Below are positions 1,838 through 15,142 of a stretch of 44,489 nucleotides of DNA, one piece after another. The stretch comes from a virus. The notes under the pieces are model-generated. The model searched no databases, had not been told where the DNA came from, and worked only from the letters and a program-made list of their open reading frames with translations. The DNA lies in IMG/VR virus record IMGVR_UViG_3300029914_000051, positions 1 through 44,489 of that record; one strand, 5' to 3'. The number at the start of each line of letters is the position of its first letter. The stretch's first letter is position 1. A program made the position numbers and the translations under genes.

Positions 1838-1978
1838 CTATTTGCTCCTGATGGTTTGTTTGAGCCGGTGGATTATTTCGGCTGATAGGCTGCGCGTGTT
1901 TGACTTTGCGCTCTGGCGGATTGTTGCCAGAATATCAGCCGGTATTCTTAAACCTATGTGGATATTCTTGATCTTCAT
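1838..1978 (-). CDS. Arc-like ribbon-helix-helix transcriptional regulator
   Basis: A 46-residue protein, short enough to be missed by many gene callers. It has the Arc/Mnt layout: a short N-terminal beta strand (NIHIGLRIP) that would insert in the DNA major groove as a dimer ribbon, then helix A (DILATIRQSAKSN) and helix B (SLSAEIIHRLKQTI), with the SxxxEI pattern typical of Arc-type proteins. GGAG lies seven bases before the ATG. A strong promoter directly upstream (2002-2030) holds a near-perfect 17-bp palindrome in its spacer, so autorepression is likely (inference). It heads the leftmost early operon and would set expression of the genes from 1835 down to the left edge. Confidence 0.85.
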   Translation of the reverse strand: MKIKNIHIGLRIPADILATIRQSAKSNTRSLSAEIIHRLKQTIRSK

Positions 1979-2001: not shown

Positions 2002-2030
2002 ATTGTTGCACAGTGTACAACGATAGTCAA
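2002..2030 (-). promoter_or_regulatory. Sigma70-type promoter for the Arc-like operon
   Basis: On the minus strand: -35 TTGACT (2025-2030), 17-base spacer, -10 AACAAT (2002-2007). It lies 24 bases upstream of the Arc-like start codon. The -35 is five of six and the -10 four of six to consensus. Confidence 0.62.
2005..2021. promoter_or_regulatory. Putative operator, 17-bp palindrome in promoter spacer
   Basis: GTTGCACAgTGTACAAC: 8-base arms around a single central base, with one mismatch. It fills the spacer and touches the -10, so a bound protein would block RNA polymerase. The adjacent Arc-like gene is the obvious candidate ligand (inference). The 8-1-8 geometry is shared with the TTTAGGCA palindrome at 13319-13335, though the sequence differs. 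Confidence 0.5.
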
Positions 2031-2470: not shown

Positions 2471-3397
2471 CTAAATTACATCTTCTGGCTCGAATAATCC
2501 TGGTTCTGGCATTGGTGGTTGTTCGTCACGTCCACGGCGCATGTTGTCGGGGATGGGCGGCATAGCTTCTTCCGCTTCCACAACAGGCGTTGCTGCTTCC
2601 TTAACCTTGTCGAGTCGTGACTTGCGTTTTGGCTTATCTTCTTCTTGCGCCAGTTCTAGCAAAGCTTGATTTTCAGCATGATCTTTCGCTGGTAAGTCCG
2701 GCATAAACAAATCTTCGTCTGCTTTCAACGCTTGTTCAACGTCTGTTGATTGTGGCAGGTACTTAGCAAGACGGCGAATAGCTGACTTCTTAGCCATTTC
2801 CTCCCACCATGAAGTCCACGGCCCTGAGTCTTTGGAACGTGAAGCTGCGCGGATTTTCTCAACATCGGCCAATGAAAGCGGTTGCACAAACACGCTTCCG
2901 TCCTTTGTCTTAGCCATTGCATAAACGCCTATCGCGGCTCCGCGTTCTCCGAATAAAATAGGCTCGTGCGTGATATGCTGGCCTTCAGTGTCCACCCAGT
3001 AACGGAATTGGTCGTTCTTATAAACAACCGCAGCGTGGAGCGTTGCGAGTTCTCCTGATTGGCGTATCTTTTTCAAAATACCTGCAACCATAATCATCGG
3101 CTGGACTGCCTTAATCCATGTGCCGTCTTTTTGTTTGGTACTGAATGTGACGAGTGCAGCTTCACGTCCATCGGGAATAACCCCGTCTTGAGCAAGTTTC
3201 ATGCAAGCAGCGTACAGGCTGCGACGATCTGCATTAAGCAAGTCTGGGCTGTTCTGAATGGCCGTAATGGCCACGCGCTGGAACTTTTCAGGGCTTATGT
3301 GGCTCGGTAATGCCATAGCGAATTGACCACTCATTTTTTGAATGTTTGCCCTGACTTCATCTATGACGGTTATTTGCTTAGTTTGCGGTTCGTTCAT
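2471..3397 (-). CDS. recT: RecT-family single-strand annealing recombinase
   Basis: About 308 residues, the usual RecT length. RecT proteins coat single-stranded DNA left by a partner 5'-3' exonuclease and anneal it to a complementary strand, giving phage recombination and concatemer formation. Family signatures include RVAITAIQNSPDLLNADRRS at about residue 45, the stretch DGREAALVTFSTK, and GPWTSWWEEMAKKSAIRRLA at about 192-211. The C-terminal 90 residues are acidic/proline-rich, as usual. The ATG at 3397 is preferred over one nine bases upstream because AAGGA then has correct spacing. The partner exonuclease lies just upstream (3553-4497), with a small zinc protein between them. Identification is confident; its in vivo partner is inferred from synteny. 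Confidence 0.92.
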   Translation of the reverse strand: MNEPQTKQITVIDEVRANIQKMSGQFAMALPSHISPEKFQRVAITAIQNSPDLLNADRRSLYAACMKLAQDGVIPDGREAALVTFSTKQKDGTWIKAVQPMIMVAGILKKIRQSGELATLHAAVVYKNDQFRYWVDTEGQHITHEPILFGERGAAIGVYAMAKTKDGSVFVQPLSLADVEKIRAASRSKDSGPWTSWWEEMAKKSAIRRLAKYLPQSTDVEQALKADEDLFMPDLPAKDHAENQALLELAQEEDKPKRKSRLDKVKEAATPVVEAEEAMPPIPDNMRRGRDEQPPMPEPGLFEPEDVI

Positions 3398-3569
3398 TTT
3401 GTTCATCCTTTTTGTGTTGTCTATATTTTAAGCCGTACTCGCTTCTGCACTTGACGCACCTTCTAAAACCAGTGACTTCAATTCTTACGTTATCACCAGT
3501 CAATTCATGTCCATTTTTACAGAATATCAGTTCTTCTTTTCCGTTCTTCCTTCTACCTTTGTTGGTCAT
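3378..3569 (-). CDS. Small zinc-finger protein between exonuclease and RecT
   Basis: 63 residues with CKNGHELTGDNVRIE ... GFRRCVKCRSEYGLKY, a Cx3H plus Cx2C arrangement that should bind one zinc ion. The start has a full AGGAGG before the ATG. The gene overlaps the end of the exonuclease gene by 17 bases and the start of recT by about 20, so the three are one translational unit. The same pattern forms the C-terminal part of the HNH enzyme at 895-1356. Here the catalytic HNH core is absent, leaving a DNA- or protein-binding module, possibly an accessory of the recombination pair (inference). Confidence 0.75.
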   Translation of the reverse strand: MTNKGRRKNGKEELIFCKNGHELTGDNVRIEVTGFRRCVKCRSEYGLKYRQHKKDEQNERTAN

Positions 3570-4497
3570 GTCCTCCTTTTCCTAGTTTAATGCGTTGGTC
3601 TACGTAGCTTTGACCTGCGACTGTATAGCCTTTTCGGTTTACGGTTTTACGTGTCACCCAGTCAATTCCGCAACGGGCTGTACTGGCATTTCCCATTATT
3701 GTAGTCATTTCAGCTTTGGCGGCTTCTTTAGCTTTCTTGGCTACGGATTCTATTGATTGATGATGACCATATTCGCCAATCAAAGATGCAAATCTATTAT
3801 TTGATGAAAGGTCTATAGCTTCGCCTGATGTATCTGAATACAACCTCTTTATGATCTCACCATCGCGCTGAAAGTCAGGAGTTGGTTCAATGCCGATATT
3901 AACCATGCGCCAGAATGTTGAAACCTTGTCGCAAATAAGCTTGCCGATTTCACGATCCACGGTGCGCTCAACAATGACGGGTTTGTTCCCACCAATTAAA
4001 GCGCCAATAATTCCGAACGTGTAAGGCTCTGGGTTATTACTGTTGGCGACTTCTAACTCGCTCTGTAATTGCAGTTCTATAGAAACAGGCGCTTCTATTT
4101 CGTCGTCAAGAGATATCCACTTTTCTTTGTACTCTTTATAATCGACATTCTTTAACTCGAATAATCCCTTTTCGTTTCCCCGCCTGATTTCAAAATCAAA
4201 GCTCGATCCATAGCGAGCACAGGTCGAGTGCAGCATGAAAACTTTAAGCGGCTTAACTTCCCAACCATAATCTTCAGCCAACCCGTGGGCTATCGGCATT
4301 TCGAGCCTACGTCCCCAACGAAGCCGATCATTGTCCTCCATGCTGATGGAGATTCCGTCTTTCTTGCGATGGAATAGCTCATATTCTGTGGTGTATGGAG
4401 ACTCGTTAAACAGAGCGGCTACTTCGCTGCTAGTAATAGCCTTTTCCTTGTGGGAAAGCCATTCTTGCTCACTCTCGTAATTAATAATTATTGGCAT
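3553..4497 (-). CDS. YqaJ/lambda-Exo-like viral recombinase exonuclease
   Basis: 314 residues of the PD-(D/E)xK viral exonuclease family that degrades one strand of duplex ends and feeds RecT. Visible: AITSSEVAALFNESPY at residues 20-35, LRWGRRLEMPIAHGLAEDYG at 59-78, the active-site strands SSFDFEI (Asp101) and LFELKNV (Glu114, Lys116), and QLQSELEV at about 143-150. The ribosome binding site is poor. The gene starts about 100 bases downstream of a leftward promoter that is interleaved with the rightward promoter of an RHH gene, so the whole exonuclease/zinc-finger/recT unit is probably switched by that region. Confidence 0.9.
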   Translation of the reverse strand: MPIIINYESEQEWLSHKEKAITSSEVAALFNESPYTTEYELFHRKKDGISISMEDNDRLRWGRRLEMPIAHGLAEDYGWEVKPLKVFMLHSTCARYGSSFDFEIRRGNEKGLFELKNVDYKEYKEKWISLDDEIEAPVSIELQLQSELEVANSNNPEPYTFGIIGALIGGNKPVIVERTVDREIGKLICDKVSTFWRMVNIGIEPTPDFQRDGEIIKRLYSDTSGEAIDLSSNNRFASLIGEYGHHQSIESVAKKAKEAAKAEMTTIMGNASTARCGIDWVTRKTVNRKGYTVAGQSYVDQRIKLGKGGHDQQR

Positions 4498-4590
4498 TTG
4501 GCTTTTCCACTTGTTTTGAAAGAATTATTTCCGCCACATTCAACTCGATAGCGCCATGTCGTGGCTCCTAATTGAAGGTTGATTCTCTCT

Positions 4591-4619
4591 TTGACAAAAA
4601 CACTCTACAATGCTATTAA
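4591..4619 (+). promoter_or_regulatory. Rightward promoter for the RHH gene at 4655
   Basis: A perfect -35 TTGACA (4591-4596), 17-base spacer and -10 TATTAA (4614-4619, four of six). It overlaps, in the opposite direction, the promoter at 4602-4630. It lies about 36 bases upstream of the RHH start codon. Confidence 0.62.
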
Positions 4620-4630
4620 TGGGGCGTCAA
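4602..4630 (-). promoter_or_regulatory. Leftward promoter for the exonuclease/RecT operon
   Basis: Minus strand -35 TTGACG (4625-4630), 17-base spacer, -10 TAGAGT (4602-4607). Its elements interdigitate with the rightward promoter: the minus -10 lies in the plus spacer, and the plus -10 lies in the minus spacer. RNA polymerase should therefore be able to occupy only one of the two at a time (inference). Confidence 0.5.
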
Positions 4631-4644
4631 TAAAATAAATGGGG
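4618..4644. repeat. AATGGGG direct repeat, candidate operator
   Basis: Two copies of AATGGGG at 4618-4624 and 4638-4644 have start points exactly 20 bases apart, about two helical turns, on the same DNA face. They flank the leftward -35 and sit just after the rightward -10. RHH proteins often bind short direct repeats cooperatively, so this is a candidate site for the product of 4655-4798 (inference). Confidence 0.4.
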
Positions 4645-4654
4645 TAAATTACAA

Positions 4655-4798
4655 ATGTCACGAATTAAAAAAACACCAGGACTATCGGTTGATATTCCAT
4701 CCGATATGCACAAGGCTTTGAAGGCCGATGCTAAGTCAAAAGACATGAAAGTCTCCCAAATTATTCGTGGCCTAATCCGTGAGTATCTCAAGAAATAA
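4655..4798 (+). CDS. Ribbon-helix-helix (CopG/Arc-type) repressor-like protein
   Basis: 47 residues, the first rightward gene in the otherwise leftward left arm. A basic N-terminal tail (MSRIKKT) is followed by the beta strand GLSVDIP, helix A (SDMHKALKADAKSKD) and helix B (KVSQIIRGLIREYLKK), the ribbon-helix-helix order. It should bind DNA as a dimer or higher oligomer. The upstream region holds its own promoter interleaved with that of the exonuclease operon and a 20-base-spaced direct repeat. This suggests it controls both directions: its own gene and the recombination operon. Only a weak GGGG ribosome binding site is present, consistent with low expression. Confidence 0.85.
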   Translation: MSRIKKTPGLSVDIPSDMHKALKADAKSKDMKVSQIIRGLIREYLKK

Positions 4799-5015
4799 CC
4801 CCTCCATCCGAAAGCACCGAAGCGGCACTACCTGGTTCAGCCACCCATGCGTATGCGGCGCACAAGGCTCGTTCGGAACTGGCGTGAATTTGCTTTTGGC
4901 GCATAGGTTGAAGAAATCTGAGTATCTGGGGACTTGGACATGCGGGCAACGTGGTTGCGTTAGAACGGGGTCGAATAATGATGCTCTCGACACGGGATTG
5001 CCTCTAGGGATATGA
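4779..5015 (+). CDS. Possible small zinc-ribbon protein
   Basis: A GTG-started frame overlapping the last 20 bases of the RHH gene. The core reads HPCVCGAQGSFGTGVNL ... LGTWTCGQRGC: a CxC pair, a Gly/Phe-rich turn and a second Cys pair. That pattern is common in small phage proteins with a treble-clef or zinc-ribbon look. Its 3' end runs 56 bases into the convergent VRR-NUC gene. An alternative open frame lies on the minus strand (4772-4993) but shows no such motif. No good ribosome binding site; translation would rely on coupling to the RHH gene. Confidence 0.43.
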   Translation: MSISRNNPSIRKHRSGTTWFSHPCVCGAQGSFGTGVNLLLAHRLKKSEYLGTWTCGQRGCVRTGSNNDALDTGLPLGI

Positions 5016-5532
5016 TTTCCTTGAGGCCATCGATTCCGTTATCTAGCACGTAGACTTTAAAGCCTTGATCGACTCGCGCCTTATGCACAAGTTCTTGCGC
5101 TTCCGAAACAACACCGCCTTTTTCCTTTTTAAGTTCGATAAAGATTATTCGAGCAGGGTGCCACGTAAGCATTAGATCGAGTTCGCCTTTGAGCATTCCC
5201 TTGGCTTTGAAACGAGCTACTAACCCCATAAATTGCTGCATACTCATAAACCGCCGAATATAACCTATTTCACCGTTCATTGACGCGGAAACCGTTACCT
5301 GTGGGCACATTTGATGTAGGTAGTGCACGACAGCGGCCTGTGTGGTGTTTTCCTCGTGCGCGTTCTTTTGTCCTGGAGCTCGTGGTTTGCGCGGCGCTCG
5401 CGGTGTCTTGTCCATGAAGGCTAATGGAGTGGCCGAAGTCTTGTTACCCCAGCCGCTTGGAGCTTGGCTTCTCATTTGTGCCTGTAGCGCGGCGAGTGTG
5501 GGTTTGTTGCGTGTAAACTTCCCTTTAGCCAT
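4960..5532 (-). CDS. VRR-NUC domain nuclease
   Basis: 190 residues. The N-terminal 55 residues are basic and Pro/Ala-rich, probably flexible. The VRR-NUC (PD-(D/E)xK) fold follows: HEENTTQAAVVHYLH at about 59-73, GELDLML with Glu117/Asp119, FIELKKEKGG with Glu133/Lys135, then SEAQ (Gln146) and the C-terminal KVYVLDNGIDGLKEII. Members cut branched DNA and are common next to phage helicases, as here. The start shares one base with the upstream stop (TAATG), so it is coupled to the 107-aa gene. The 3' end may overlap a convergent small gene. Confidence 0.88.
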   Translation of the reverse strand: MAKGKFTRNKPTLAALQAQMRSQAPSGWGNKTSATPLAFMDKTPRAPRKPRAPGQKNAHEENTTQAAVVHYLHQMCPQVTVSASMNGEIGYIRRFMSMQQFMGLVARFKAKGMLKGELDLMLTWHPARIIFIELKKEKGGVVSEAQELVHKARVDQGFKVYVLDNGIDGLKEIISLEAIPCREHHYSTPF

Positions 5533-5855
5533 TAGAACCCCATCCTGTCTGAATTGTCGGCGTTAATGCGCCGTTCGATGATTGCGCGGCCATTAGCTAG
5601 AAGGCGTTTTAATAGCCCCTCTGGTTCGCGTTTTGACCTATTCCAGCACAGGAAACAGAACAGGTGATACAGGTGCTGCTGTTCCCAGAAACTTCCGTCA
5701 AACATGTAATTTGAAGCTCCGTCTAGGTACAGGTCGATTTCCTTCGGGTCGGCCAGCATCAACGATACGCGGTTTGTTTCTGTTTTCATGCGCTGCTCTT
5801 GCCATAATTTTAAAGAACATGGCTGTAAAGCATGAAGTGCTTCGGATGGTTTCAT
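5532..5855 (-). CDS. Hypothetical protein, 107 aa
   Basis: A 107-residue protein with an aromatic centre (SNYMFDGSFWEQQHLYHLFCFLCWNR) and a basic end. The ATG overlaps the upstream stop as ATGA, so translation is coupled to the 335-aa gene. It lies between the helicase block and the VRR-NUC nuclease, which suggests a replication or recombination role without proving one. No family recognised. Confidence 0.7.
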   Translation of the reverse strand: MKPSEALHALQPCSLKLWQEQRMKTETNRVSLMLADPKEIDLYLDGASNYMFDGSFWEQQHLYHLFCFLCWNRSKREPEGLLKRLLANGRAIIERRINADNSDRMGF

Positions 5856-6859
5856 AATACATAATCCTTTTCGATCATTCCCAGTTCTTTACGTCCGGCT
5901 AAGTGCGGACTCCACCAATACACGCCAGTTTTTCTAATTTTAAAGTGCCCTCTTCGCCAGTGCATTCTTACATGCTCGTCTGTTTCGCCGTCCTCTCTAA
6001 TTGCTGCCTTTAACTTGTTGGTTAATACAATAGTTTTATGATCAAATAATGCCAGCTTTCCGTTGCGGATTCTTTTCTTATTTAAAGCTTCAATATTTTC
6101 GTGATCTTGGATTTCTACTGCGTTTTTACAGTTCATAAGGATAAAAAACAATTGAGGAAACAATGTTTCTCCAATCCAATCTGCGGCTGCGGATTGCATA
6201 GACTGAACCATTATCTTTTGATCGAGTTTTCCTCCTTCATACATTGTATTCATGTAATGCGGGAATGGGAAAGGTACAAACATTTCCCCAATTTTTTTCG
6301 CTGCTTCCAATTCGTGCGAAGATAATGTTTCTACCCATTCGGAAATCTTTGCATCCTGTGCTTTCATATACGTACTTGGATCTACCTTTATGCCAGATCC
6401 CAGGTTAATAAGTTCTTCCATCATTTCCGCCCCTTTCTTTTTGTCGTAAACATAAGAAAGAATGCTCATAATCGGCGGCAAAGATGAATCTCTAAAAGAA
6501 TACCCCATCGAAATAAGCAATTCATTTTCGCTCTTTTCTTCTACCAGAAACCCTATTTTCTTTGTTCTGGGTGCTTCGGCCTCTGTGCGTAGATCATCTA
6601 TATTACTGTCGCGTTTTGCCGATGAACTATACTCAATCCACGTTAGGGGGAACGGTGGCCTTGCGAAATTCATACTTTCTAGCATTGATGATGGTTTCTG
6701 CTCTCTAATGTGTCGAGCCATTTCGTAAGCATCGTCGCTCACAACAAATTTATGAGCTTCTATGAACTTCCTGCATAAGGAGCCAATTCCTTCCTTGTCA
6801 TATTTGAAATATGCCCCTACTTTTCCAGTATGGCTCTCGTAAAGTTCATCACACAACAT
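5852..6859 (-). CDS. Conserved phage protein of unknown function next to helicase
   Basis: 335 residues, no named domain recognised. The middle is helical and rich in Phe/Met/Pro (EMFVPFPFPHYMNTMYEGGK). The C-terminus, RMHWRRGHFKIRKTG followed by YWWSPHLAGR, is a motif I associate with conserved phage and prophage hypothetical proteins usually located beside replication genes. It starts four bases after the helicase stop, so the two are one unit. A replisome accessory role is inferred from position only. Confidence 0.75.
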   Translation of the reverse strand: MLCDELYESHTGKVGAYFKYDKEGIGSLCRKFIEAHKFVVSDDAYEMARHIREQKPSSMLESMNFARPPFPLTWIEYSSSAKRDSNIDDLRTEAEAPRTKKIGFLVEEKSENELLISMGYSFRDSSLPPIMSILSYVYDKKKGAEMMEELINLGSGIKVDPSTYMKAQDAKISEWVETLSSHELEAAKKIGEMFVPFPFPHYMNTMYEGGKLDQKIMVQSMQSAAADWIGETLFPQLFFILMNCKNAVEIQDHENIEALNKKRIRNGKLALFDHKTIVLTNKLKAAIREDGETDEHVRMHWRRGHFKIRKTGVYWWSPHLAGRKELGMIEKDYVL

Positions 6860-6862
6860 GCT

Positions 6863-8218
6863 TTATTCCTCCCAATCTATGGGTTGATTCAGTCTTTCCT
6901 CGAAGGCAGCGCGGTAATATTCTATCCTATCCAACGCATAGTAGGTCGATCCATTAGAAGACTCCTGTTTACGTGTTAGTCTAAGCTCGTTTTTCTCAAG
7001 TCCGGCGTATTCGTTGATATTCCTCGCCAGCCATATAGAAGTTTTTGGGTGCTTAACTCTCGCCTGTTCGCCCCATTTTATATAGGCTTCAAAGAACTCA
7101 TTACATCCTATCGTTGGGTTAAGCGGATTTGTGTCCCACGGATTTGCTGCCCCTATACGGCGCGTCAATAATACCTCGTGCCACCATTTTAATTCGTCTG
7201 CTATGCCGTTGAGTTTTTGATCTAAAAGAGCGTTTGTTTTAGGAACATCCGAAAAAATATTTTCGTCATATTTTCTATTTAAAAAGAAACTCAGTAAAGC
7301 CTTATATCCGGCATTGTTATCGTCGGTTAGTTGCTTTTCGATTGCTGCGAAATAGGGGCGGTTTCTTATTGCGTTTTCCGCTACGTCCAGAACGCAAAAT
7401 CGCCGTGCTGTGGCATTAGCTGGTACTGCCCACGTCGAATTAGTGGCCATGATAAAGCGGATATAGCTGCGTTTAAAATCGGCGTCCTTGTTTTTCCCTT
7501 CGATGTTCAAATAAGGTTCAGTTATCATGCCATACAAAGCGCCCTTTGCTTGCTGATCGCCGCCCCAAAAAGCCTCGTCAACAAAGGCTAAAAGTTTGTA
7601 TTGCAATTGTGCGTTGAATTTTCCCACAAGCTGTTGTGATTGCAAGATGTGGACGTAATTAGCTTGGTTGATAAGGTTTGATACTGTGGTAGCGAATCGG
7701 CCCTTACCCGTGCCCTCTGCTGAACTTCTTAGCACAAGAGCAACCCCGTTTTTACGTTCTGGACGTTGGAACATGTCAGCAAGCCAGTCTAGCACCCACG
7801 AATAAAGGTAATCCTCCCCGCTGCATATATTTGTCTTGACGTGATCGAGAAATAAATCAAATTTCCCGCCCTCTTTTGGCTCAAATTTGAAGCCCCTCCA
7901 TAGGTTGTATGAACTGCTGTCCAGCTCAATATTCGGCGCAAAATCCACCGATTCATATTGTCTGCGCTGTTTCCATGATAGCCATGAAGAAGCTATCTTC
8001 TTTCTGCTTGGCTTTTTTGATTCTTCTTCCTCTGTGGTCGGCGCTTCTTCTTCAACGAATATGTTGTCCAGTAGGGTTTTGAAGTCATTAACCGACAAAT
8101 AACGCGGAATATCCTGCGAAAAATCTGCAATCCGCACAAGGCCGCCGATGCAAACAACGGCAAACCGTTTGTTCATATCATTAAGCGCGATAGTCCTAGC
8201 ACTGGATGTTTTTGCCAT
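6863..8218 (-). CDS. D5/SF3-type replicative helicase (DUF5906-like)
   Basis: 451 residues. The ATPase core has a Walker A loop SSAEGTGKGR (about 165-174), Walker B LLAFVDEAFW (about 209-218), a sensor FIMATNS (about 255-261) and an Arg-finger-like ATARRFCVLD. This is the arrangement of virus-type primase-helicases that unwind the fork as hexamers. The first 150 residues contain no visible primase motifs, so this is helicase-only. An acidic stretch (EEEAPTTEEEESKK) lies at about 56-70. The C-terminal part (NPTIGCNEFFEAYIKWGEQA) resembles the winged-helix region of D5 proteins. A DNA polymerase is not encoded in the window, so host replication proteins are probably used. Confidence 0.9.
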   Translation of the reverse strand: MAKTSSARTIALNDMNKRFAVVCIGGLVRIADFSQDIPRYLSVNDFKTLLDNIFVEEEAPTTEEEESKKPSRKKIASSWLSWKQRRQYESVDFAPNIELDSSSYNLWRGFKFEPKEGGKFDLFLDHVKTNICSGEDYLYSWVLDWLADMFQRPERKNGVALVLRSSAEGTGKGRFATTVSNLINQANYVHILQSQQLVGKFNAQLQYKLLAFVDEAFWGGDQQAKGALYGMITEPYLNIEGKNKDADFKRSYIRFIMATNSTWAVPANATARRFCVLDVAENAIRNRPYFAAIEKQLTDDNNAGYKALLSFFLNRKYDENIFSDVPKTNALLDQKLNGIADELKWWHEVLLTRRIGAANPWDTNPLNPTIGCNEFFEAYIKWGEQARVKHPKTSIWLARNINEYAGLEKNELRLTRKQESSNGSTYYALDRIEYYRAAFEERLNQPIDWEE

Positions 8219-8227
8219 ACCTCGCCC

Positions 8228-8407
8228 CTATTTCATGAGGCGCAGGAATGTCGAAACTTTGTAAGATTTGTTGCGGGTTTTCCAGCGTGTGATAGTAGCT
8301 GGCGAAACACCTGCCTGAGTGCAGAGAACAGAAACCGATATTTTAAGCTTTTTGGCACGTTTTGCGACTAATTCAACGGCTTCACTAACGCTAATCGGAA
8401 TATACAT
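8228..8407 (-). CDS. Small Cro/CI-like helix-turn-helix protein
   Basis: 59 residues with a helix-turn-helix of the lambda-repressor type: KLKISVSVLCTQAGVSPATI then TRWKTRN, in which the second helix (SPATITRWK) would read DNA. It has no dimerisation domain beyond the last helix, so it is Cro-sized. A promoter-like sequence (8440-8469) lies just upstream, and it ends nine bases before the helicase start. It may regulate that replication block. The ribosome binding site is weak. Confidence 0.7.
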   Translation of the reverse strand: MYIPISVSEAVELVAKRAKKLKISVSVLCTQAGVSPATITRWKTRNKSYKVSTFLRLMK

Positions 8408-11438: not shown

Positions 11439-11603
11439 TTAAGCCGCCTTTCCATGTTCAAGTTTAAGAGAACGTAAGTTCAACATCGTAGCCAGCTCAT
11501 AAGCTTGCAGGATGGTCAGCCCTGCTCCTACCGTCTCGCGGGTGCTCGTATCTATCACGAGGAAACGATGCGGCATTGGGGCGCGTTGTAGAGCGTATTT
11601 CAT
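11439..11603 (-). CDS. Small protein overlapping the ArdC-like C-terminus
   Basis: A 54-codon frame (MKYALQRAPMPHRFLVIDTS ... TRETVGAGLTILQAYELATM) with GAGG seven bases before its ATG. Its first 107 bases overlap the end of the ArdC-like gene in another frame. It reads like a folded small protein, whereas the overlapping ArdC tail is Arg/Pro-rich and low in information, so this frame may be the ancestral one. The stop falls just inside the next gene's Shine-Dalgarno region. Confidence 0.5.
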   Translation of the reverse strand: MKYALQRAPMPHRFLVIDTSTRETVGAGLTILQAYELATMLNLRSLKLEHGKAA

Positions 11604-12360
11604 GCGGCCTCGCCTTCAATATCGCGTCCACGGCGCTAAATACCTTCCCATACCGTACCTTTTCCCCTGCGTTGCCGCTGTTCCAGTTGGCGATATAACC
11701 GCGCGAGTATTCCAGCCCTTCGGTGATGCCAAGAACGGAAAGCACGACATAAGCGGTTAGCTCGGCCTCTACTTCGATAACGGTGTTGGGAAGTTCGGCG
11801 CTGTCGGCAAGCAAAACATCATCGGCATGTAGCAAACAGTGCGCGATTTCGTGCAAGTGGGTTTTAAGGGGATTAGCTGCCAGTGCGCTAACGGCGATTG
11901 TTTTTGCATTCGGCTTTGCGTATCCCTGCGCGTTGCCATTGACCGTTGAAAAATGCTCGGTTGTTATGCCTAGCCCGACAAGTGCGTTTGCCATATCAAA
12001 GCTTGGCGTTTCCGGCATAACATAGTCATCGCCTTCGGTCTGGCTCAATCCGAACCAGTTATTCCGGCGAATGAAGAACATGCCGTTAACTTCGCCCGAA
12101 ACTTTGTCCTTCGACACGCAAGGCATTAGCAACGCGATGGCCTTCGAGCCTTTTTTAACTTGGCGACCTAATTCTTTCCACCCGTTATAAGTGTTAATCG
12201 GTTCGGCTTGTGCAAGCTGCATGATCGCTAAGAACTGATTACCGATTGAATAGCGGTGGAAGTAACGATAAGCGGCGCAAAGCTTGCCTGATTGCGTCAA
12301 GGTTTCTTTGGCAATGGCTTCGTAGTTGTGGGAATTGGAAGAAGTGGAATTATCTGACAT
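11497..12360 (-). CDS. ArdC-like antirestriction protein with metallopeptidase motif
   Basis: 287 residues. The N-terminal ArdC domain (about 10-105) binds single-stranded DNA in plasmid relatives: SIGNQFLAIMQ, TYNGWKELGRQVKKGSKAIA at about 57-76, and FFIRRNNWFGLSQTEG. A zinc-peptidase-like region follows with HEIAH at 170-174 and a third ligand in EVEAELTAY at about 196-204. Plasmid ArdC protects incoming DNA from restriction; the same early role fits here because it has its own promoter near the top of the leftward operon. The last 35 residues (from about 253) are Arg/Pro-rich and lie entirely over another gene, so they may be an acquired tail. GGAG nine bases before the ATG. Confidence 0.88.
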   Translation of the reverse strand: MSDNSTSSNSHNYEAIAKETLTQSGKLCAAYRYFHRYSIGNQFLAIMQLAQAEPINTYNGWKELGRQVKKGSKAIALLMPCVSKDKVSGEVNGMFFIRRNNWFGLSQTEGDDYVMPETPSFDMANALVGLGITTEHFSTVNGNAQGYAKPNAKTIAVSALAANPLKTHLHEIAHCLLHADDVLLADSAELPNTVIEVEAELTAYVVLSVLGITEGLEYSRGYIANWNSGNAGEKVRYGKVFSAVDAILKARPHEIRSTTRPNAASFPRDRYEHPRDGRSRADHPASL

Positions 12361-13845: not shown

Positions 13846-15142
13846 AAGATTGTTTCGGGCAGGCAACCAATTAGGAAAATCATTGGCTGGCGGCGCTGAG
13901 GCCGCTATGCACGCAACGGGGCGGTATCCTGATTGGTGGGATGGCAAACGTTTTGACAAAGCTAATGATGGCTGGGCATCGGGCGTTACAGGCGAGGTGA
14001 CACGCGACACCATTCAAAGATTGTTGATCGGCGCTGTTGGTAAAGAGGGAACGGGGTTTATTCCGCACAAGGACATCAAGGAAGTCATTAACGCTCGCGG
14101 TGTGGCAGGGCTTGCGGATACGATACTTGTTCAGCATGTCAGGGGTGGCGTTTCACGTATTAAGCTGAAATACTATGAACAGGGGCGCGAGAAGTTCCAG
14201 GCCGACACGTTGCAATGGGCTTGGAATGACGAAGAACCGCCCGATGATATTTATATGGAAATCCTCACACGTACCAATGCGACCGGCGGTATTTTGTGGA
14301 CGACATTTACCCCTCTTTTAGGGATGTCCACCGTTGTGCGTAGATTCCTGAATGAACCTTCGCCTGATCGCGTTGATATCAATATGACGATATCCGATGT
14401 TACGCATATTTCAGAAGATGAAAAACTGCGTATTATCGCAAGCTATCCCGCGCATGAACGCGAGGCACGCATTAACGGTAAACCGATGCTTGGATCGGGT
14501 CGCATATTTCCGGTATCTGAGGAATTGATAAAAGTTCCTCGTTTTGAGGTTCCACAGTGGTATCGCAAGATCGGTGGCATCGATTTCGGTTGGGATCATC
14601 CGACAGCTGCAGCTAAGATAGCTTACAATCCTGATATGGATATTATTTACCTTATCAATGTTTATAAACGTTCTGAGGCTATTCCTGCCATTCATGCGAG
14701 CGCGTTAAAATCATGGGGCAAAGATTTGCCGTGGTCGTGGCCGCATGACGGATTGCAACATGATAAAGGATCGGGCGAAAACCTAGCTGATCAATATCGC
14801 CGCGAAGGTCTAGCCATGTTGCCTGAACGCGCAACCTTTGACGATGGATCGAACGGCGTTGAGGCTGGAATTATGGACATGCTGACGCGCATGGAAAATG
14901 GCACATTCAAAGTTTTCGATAGCTGCCAATTGTTCTTTGATGAAATGCTTATGTATCATCGCAAGGATGGCAAAGTGGTCAAAGAGTTCGATGACGTTAT
15001 ATCGGCTTGTCGCTATGCAATTATGATGCTGCGTTATTCAAGGCCAGATACAAAAAAAGCCGATAGTGGCATGAAGCATGATGAAGGCAATCATCAATAT
15101 AACTACAATCCATTGACGACAGATGCCGCTCGCGGTCTCTAG
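13694..15142 (+). CDS. terL: Terminase large subunit
   Basis: 482 residues, DNA-packaging ATPase and nuclease. ATPase: Walker A-like loop AGNQLGKS (56-63), Walker B LQWAWNDEEP (173-182), coupling motif TTFTP (203-207). Nuclease (RNase H-like): GGIDFGWDHP with Asp297, WPHDG with Asp352, and the C-terminal DDVISACRYA with Asp433/434. It closely follows the podovirus Terminase_6/gp19 type. The first ATG has GAGGAG about ten bases upstream; in-frame ATGs at 13715 and 13739 are possible. The overlap with the small subunit implies coupled synthesis. Confidence 0.94.
   Translation: MTFSDSAMLSQSELLMFQAKIEEQLLRRKLELYQPYPKQKQFHSLGKTKRERLFRAGNQLGKSLAGGAEAAMHATGRYPDWWDGKRFDKANDGWASGVTGEVTRDTIQRLLIGAVGKEGTGFIPHKDIKEVINARGVAGLADTILVQHVRGGVSRIKLKYYEQGREKFQADTLQWAWNDEEPPDDIYMEILTRTNATGGILWTTFTPLLGMSTVVRRFLNEPSPDRVDINMTISDVTHISEDEKLRIIASYPAHEREARINGKPMLGSGRIFPVSEELIKVPRFEVPQWYRKIGGIDFGWDHPTAAAKIAYNPDMDIIYLINVYKRSEAIPAIHASALKSWGKDLPWSWPHDGLQHDKGSGENLADQYRREGLAMLPERATFDDGSNGVEAGIMDMLTRMENGTFKVFDSCQLFFDEMLMYHRKDGKVVKEFDDVISACRYAIMMLRYSRPDTKKADSGMKHDEGNHQYNYNPLTTDAARGL

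Follow-up and report, generated by a model that had tools for sequence, protein, structure and literature searches.

A candidate divergent control region between a ribbon-helix-helix gene and a recombination operon in a podovirus-like phage

Gene content of the locus

The window analysed here comprises the 44,489 nt of IMGVR_UViG_3300029914_000051, a metagenome-derived phage record to whose positions coordinates refer unless another record is named. The genome is podovirus-like and encodes a T7-type head-tail adaptor, tail proteins and a terminase; a near-identical longer record of the same phage (G001) spans 58.7 kb. Early genes (1-12.4 kb) are read leftward and late genes rightward from 13.4 kb, with the leftward early run interrupted by a rightward gene for a ribbon-helix-helix (RHH) protein. 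The early region also contains a gene (11497-12360, -) whose product matches a PHROG anti-restriction family (3e-15). Low-complexity repeats with several open frames, encoding GSGY-, AP- or RV-type runs, are located near record ends in G001 (L097 6059-6470) and in the distant relative G009 (L188 130-555). Furthermore, both ends of the 58.7-kb record carry related segments (..NKKGVKKVKTEQG..VLYVV..; L096 247-747 and L097 6849-7775), which possibly represent duplicated genes or an assembly overlap.

The leftward unit of the locus begins with a YqaJ-family exonuclease gene (3553..4497, -), followed by genes for a 63-aa zinc-ribbon/HNH-fragment-like protein (3378..3569, -) and a RecT annealing protein (2471..3406, -; family match 2.6e-40), and is preceded by a 463-nt break holding opposing genes. 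Gene identities and orientations agree with the initial annotation, which had described divergent units with an exonuclease/zinc-finger/RecT operon on one side; that annotation included neither the Arc-family gene of the leftward run nor the zinc-ribbon-like ORF of the rightward unit, both described below. Further along the leftward run, a 46-aa Arc-family RHH protein is encoded (1838..1978, -; Arc profile 30.8 bits, cut-off 20.4). A promoter-like TTGACT-17-AACAAT sequence with a TGn element (2002..2030, -) precedes this gene and overlaps a 17-bp near-palindrome, GTTGCACAGTGTACAAC (2005-2021), in which 14 of 16 positions are symmetric. Six widths were tested, and at this width 3.4% of shuffles reach the same symmetry.

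The rightward RHH gene (4655..4798, +) encodes a 47-aa CopG/ORF56-like protein, which barely exceeds the cut-off of the RHH_1 profile (21.0 versus 20.5 bits). Its nearest proteins are ORF56 and CopG (ORF56, PDB 2k9i, E 0.022), and it scores 28.8 bits against the NCBIfam ORF56 model, below the cut-off of 50. Comparisons with phage and plasmid records yielded weak matches only. The predicted structure consists of a strand and two helices (pLDDT 78), and Foldseek returned no significant match for this single-chain model. Judged by its family match, the ORF is real and belongs to the RHH (CopG) family, and both the profile match and the strand-helix-helix model bear out its earlier description as a 47-aa RHH protein. 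Small single-domain RHH proteins are typically autoregulators that usually repress their own promoter. An alignment anchored at the conserved proline places G, S and D at the strand positions through which Arc contacts DNA, so the DNA target of the protein is not to be guessed from that of Arc.

A 78-aa ORF (4779..5015, +) overlaps the 3' ends of both the RHH gene and a VRR-NUC gene. It contains a zinc-ribbon-like pattern (HPCxCG...WTCGxxGC) and had no match in Pfam or PHROG. In the relative G004, most aligned late-gene segments are 87-95% identical to the window and the early region is mostly replaced. This relative nevertheless encodes a counterpart of the ORF with 49% identity (L194:6253-6453, -) and retains its convergent overlap with a VRR-NUC-like gene. 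The G004 contig terminates in AAATAAC, which, with the frame unchanged, corresponds to the last lysine codon and stop codon of the RHH gene; the junction between the RHH stop and the zinc-ribbon ORF is kept in this relative. As both the junction and the ORF are conserved, the comparison suggests that the rightward unit consists of two genes, of which the zinc-ribbon ORF is probably the second, and that G004 may also carry an RHH gene beyond its contig end.

Overlapping promoter-like sites and candidate operators

The divergent gap between the RHH gene (start 4655, +) and the exonuclease gene (start 4497, -) contains two opposing promoter-like sites. The rightward candidate, TTGACA-17-TATTAA (4591..4619, +), has its -35 element at 4591-4596 and its -10 element at 4614-4619, directly preceded by an extended -10 TGC (4611-4613). 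The leftward candidate, TTGACG-17-TAGAGT (4602..4630, -), has its -35 element at 4630-4625 and its -10 element at 4607-4602. The two sites share a stretch of 40 bp (4591-4630) in which the -10 element of each falls within the spacer of the other, so that the hexamers, 17-bp spacers and mutual interleaving, read directly from the sequence, are exactly as previously claimed. The predicted rightward start lies at ~4626, with a predicted leader of 29 nt to the RHH ATG, and the predicted leftward start at ~4595, ~98 nt from the exonuclease ATG.

The sites were scored with an approximate sigma70 weight matrix. Across the 44.5-kb window, the rightward site ranks second on the plus strand and the leftward site 23rd on the minus strand. 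The window contains a single strictly interleaved pair of this strength; when its full sequence was dinucleotide-shuffled 200 times, 5 of the shuffles held an interleaved pair at least as strong. A looser definition of overlap adds five weaker opposing pairs elsewhere, all inside genes. In the rightward -10 element, the T at -7, a strongly conserved base, is missing, and an alternative rightward -10, TACAAT (4606..4611, +), is accompanied by a weak -35 (TTCTCT at 4583). The leftward site matches the consensus at only 9 of 12 positions, and sites of this class are no more common than expected by chance (21 observed versus 22.5 in shuffles). The sequence geometry speaks for the proposal of two promoters; the mediocre leftward score and the missing -7 T speak against it. 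Taken alone, the pattern is suggestive of real promoters, and its placement in a divergent gap makes the pair credible.

Two copies of AATGGGG (4618-4624 and 4638-4644, +), 20 bp apart, had been put forward as a feature of the switch and as a target of the RHH protein. A 7-mer repeat of this kind is present in 22% of gap shuffles, a 9/10 repeat resembling its extended form in 13%, and 18% of equal-sized windows of the same phage also hold such repeats, frequencies which provide no statistical support for a special role. The second copy precedes the RHH ATG at the spacing expected of a Shine-Dalgarno sequence and probably serves as one for this gene; ATGGGG also precedes the ATG of the VRR-NUC gene. 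The repeats were rejected as an operator on the grounds of both their shuffle frequency and this fit to a ribosome site. No other repeat or palindrome in the gap exceeded shuffles as a clear operator, and folding of the exonuclease leader and of the 4800-4960 gap gave nothing above shuffles. The 8-mer CACTCTAC (4601..4608, +), which overlaps the leftward -10 element, also occurs within the arc operator of P22; it covers 8 of the 21 bp of the Arc operator, has a shuffle frequency of 3.7% and is perhaps shared by chance.

Known systems and regulatory interpretation

The closest likeness at the sequence level is the immI region of phage P22, where interleaved opposing sigma70-type promoters also separate divergent units with RHH genes. 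The same matrix recovered the P22 pair as a positive control (13.4/10.7), with Pant as TTGACA-17-TATATT (14793-14821, +) and Pmnt as TTGAGA-17-TATCAT (14826-14798, -). In P22, the Arc operator lies inside the interleaved promoters and the RHH genes mnt and arc flank them on both sides; Mnt represses arc and ant, while Arc inhibits mnt and moderates ant (PMC11016777). The use of RHH proteins in place of a CI/Cro pair, initially pointed out as a difference, is accordingly already present in immI. In contrast to P22, the adjacent RHH gene of the window is CopG/ORF56-like and found on the right side only, and the Arc-family gene belongs to the left run, at a distance of 2.6 kb. Furthermore, the offset between the promoters is 11 bp rather than 5, a recombination operon forms the leftward unit, and neither ant nor sar was seen. 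A search of the 58.7-kb record with the P22 Ant protein gave no match, which covers Ant only and leaves room for unrelated antirepressors. Because of this result and the remote position of the Arc-like gene, the region is not classed as immI.

Bidirectional promoters (Warman et al. 2021; PMC10268837) likewise have divergent sigma70 starts on shared DNA, with exclusive binding expected. That class is defined by starts 7-25 bp apart (PMC10268837), whereas the predicted starts in the window are ~31 bp apart and its two -10 elements have no bases in common. The CopG/ORF56 plasmid copy-control repressors are similarly minimal single-domain RHH proteins, but the window protein is encoded by a phage, has no plasmid replication gene downstream and falls below the ORF56 cut-off. 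The exonuclease-RecT modules of Lessievirus (JC1, BcepIL02) include a homologous exonuclease (~41%) adjoining a regulator gene; in JC1, however, the annotated 'repressor' is co-oriented with the exonuclease, a divergent 'transcriptional regulator' is also present, and a serine recombinase is annotated, unlike in the window phage. The conjugation switch of pLS20 is likewise reported to be built on overlapping divergent promoters, but on a Gram-positive plasmid and with DNA looping (PMC4207663).

A role in immunity, as initially suggested, is unsupported. No match to integrase (PF00589), resolvase (PF00239) or an S24 repressor was identified in the 58.7-kb record, which may be incomplete, and the only HTH_3 (Cro/CI-type) match, in a 59-aa protein (8228-8407), is below the cut-off. 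A temperate life of the phage, within the bounds of a possibly incomplete record, is equally unsupported.

The reading that we favour, though by no means strongly, is a pair of mutually exclusive divergent promoters with an RHH protein that represses its own gene and also sets the timing of the recombination operon. Given their geometry, two sigma70-type promoters on the same 40 bp would be occupied by host RNA polymerase one at a time. The rightward promoter would express the small CopG-like protein and the overlapping zinc-ribbon ORF, and the leftward promoter the exonuclease/RecT operon. We infer that an RHH dimer would bind within or beside the shared 40 bp, repress its own promoter and thereby damp or time the recombination operon. 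It is unlikely, though worth weighing, that both promoters are simply used as plain divergent promoters without any switch, the RHH protein regulating a phage or host promoter elsewhere or belonging to an unseen pair. The lack of a significant operator in the gap fits that account, as does the finding that bacteria commonly have divergent promoters that overlap, many of which are intragenic and without a demonstrated regulatory role (PMC10268837). The usual self-repression by small RHH proteins, in contrast, speaks for an autorepressor.

We consider it improbable that the region operates as a two-RHH switch like that of P22, in which the rightward RHH protein and the Arc-like protein would act on the shared 40 bp, each repressing the promoter of its counterpart, to give two stable or sequential states. 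Such a switch would account for the Arc-family gene in the leftward run, the P22-like promoter architecture and the presence of CACTCTAC on the leftward -10. However, the Arc-like gene lies ~2.6 kb downstream of the shared region behind a promoter-like site of its own, CACTCTAC represents only part of the operator at the shuffle frequency given above, and the 58.7-kb record shows neither an Ant match nor recognisable lysogeny genes. Little probability is likewise assigned to the rightward promoter alone being real and the leftward hexamers arising by chance, in which case the operon would be read from upstream early promoters (at 8.4 kb or in the divergent gap at 12.4-13.4 kb). The chance-level rate of 9/12 sites in this region, the leftward orientation of the upstream genes (4960-8218) and the failure to find a terminator-like site on the leftward strand from 4960 to 4497 are consistent with such read-through, but the exonuclease opens a new leftward run after a break with opposing genes.

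An RHH-controlled divergent promoter is thus the likeliest form in which the proposed compact switch survives, stripped of its immunity role and its AATGGGG operator. As the arrangement is already known from P22, it is probably ordinary timing control rather than a new kind of switch, and a divergent phage control region at this locus is credible, though ordinary and with known precedent. If real, it would carry the immI promoter design over to the control of YqaJ/RecT recombination genes in a phage that has no recognisable lysogeny genes, and would offer a very small divergent promoter on which RHH autoregulation and the exclusion of RNA polymerase could be studied; such divergent control is already established as a general principle. 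Very doubtful is the more far-reaching version, in which CopG-like and Arc-like repressors would form an RHH-only switch on one shared 40-bp promoter in such a phage, choosing between expression of the recombination operon and a rightward RHH/zinc-ribbon state.

Comparable gaps in related phages

Over 9.5 kb, the other copies of the gap (L002/L003) show no more than a single base difference. A diverged homologue of the promoter gap was not found: the contig of G004 breaks off precisely at the RHH stop codon, and another scan of the collection yielded no contig reaching beyond it. Across 80 relatives of the exonuclease, no RHH homologue was located near the exonuclease gene. Among 32 portal-relative records, one weak RHH match (G009) and one exonuclease (G016) were identified. 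In the distantly related G009, opposing TTGACT/TTGACA sites are present upstream of its RHH gene, and a perfect GGTTGAC/GTCAACC inverted repeat (L188 801-850) spans these opposing -35-like sites.
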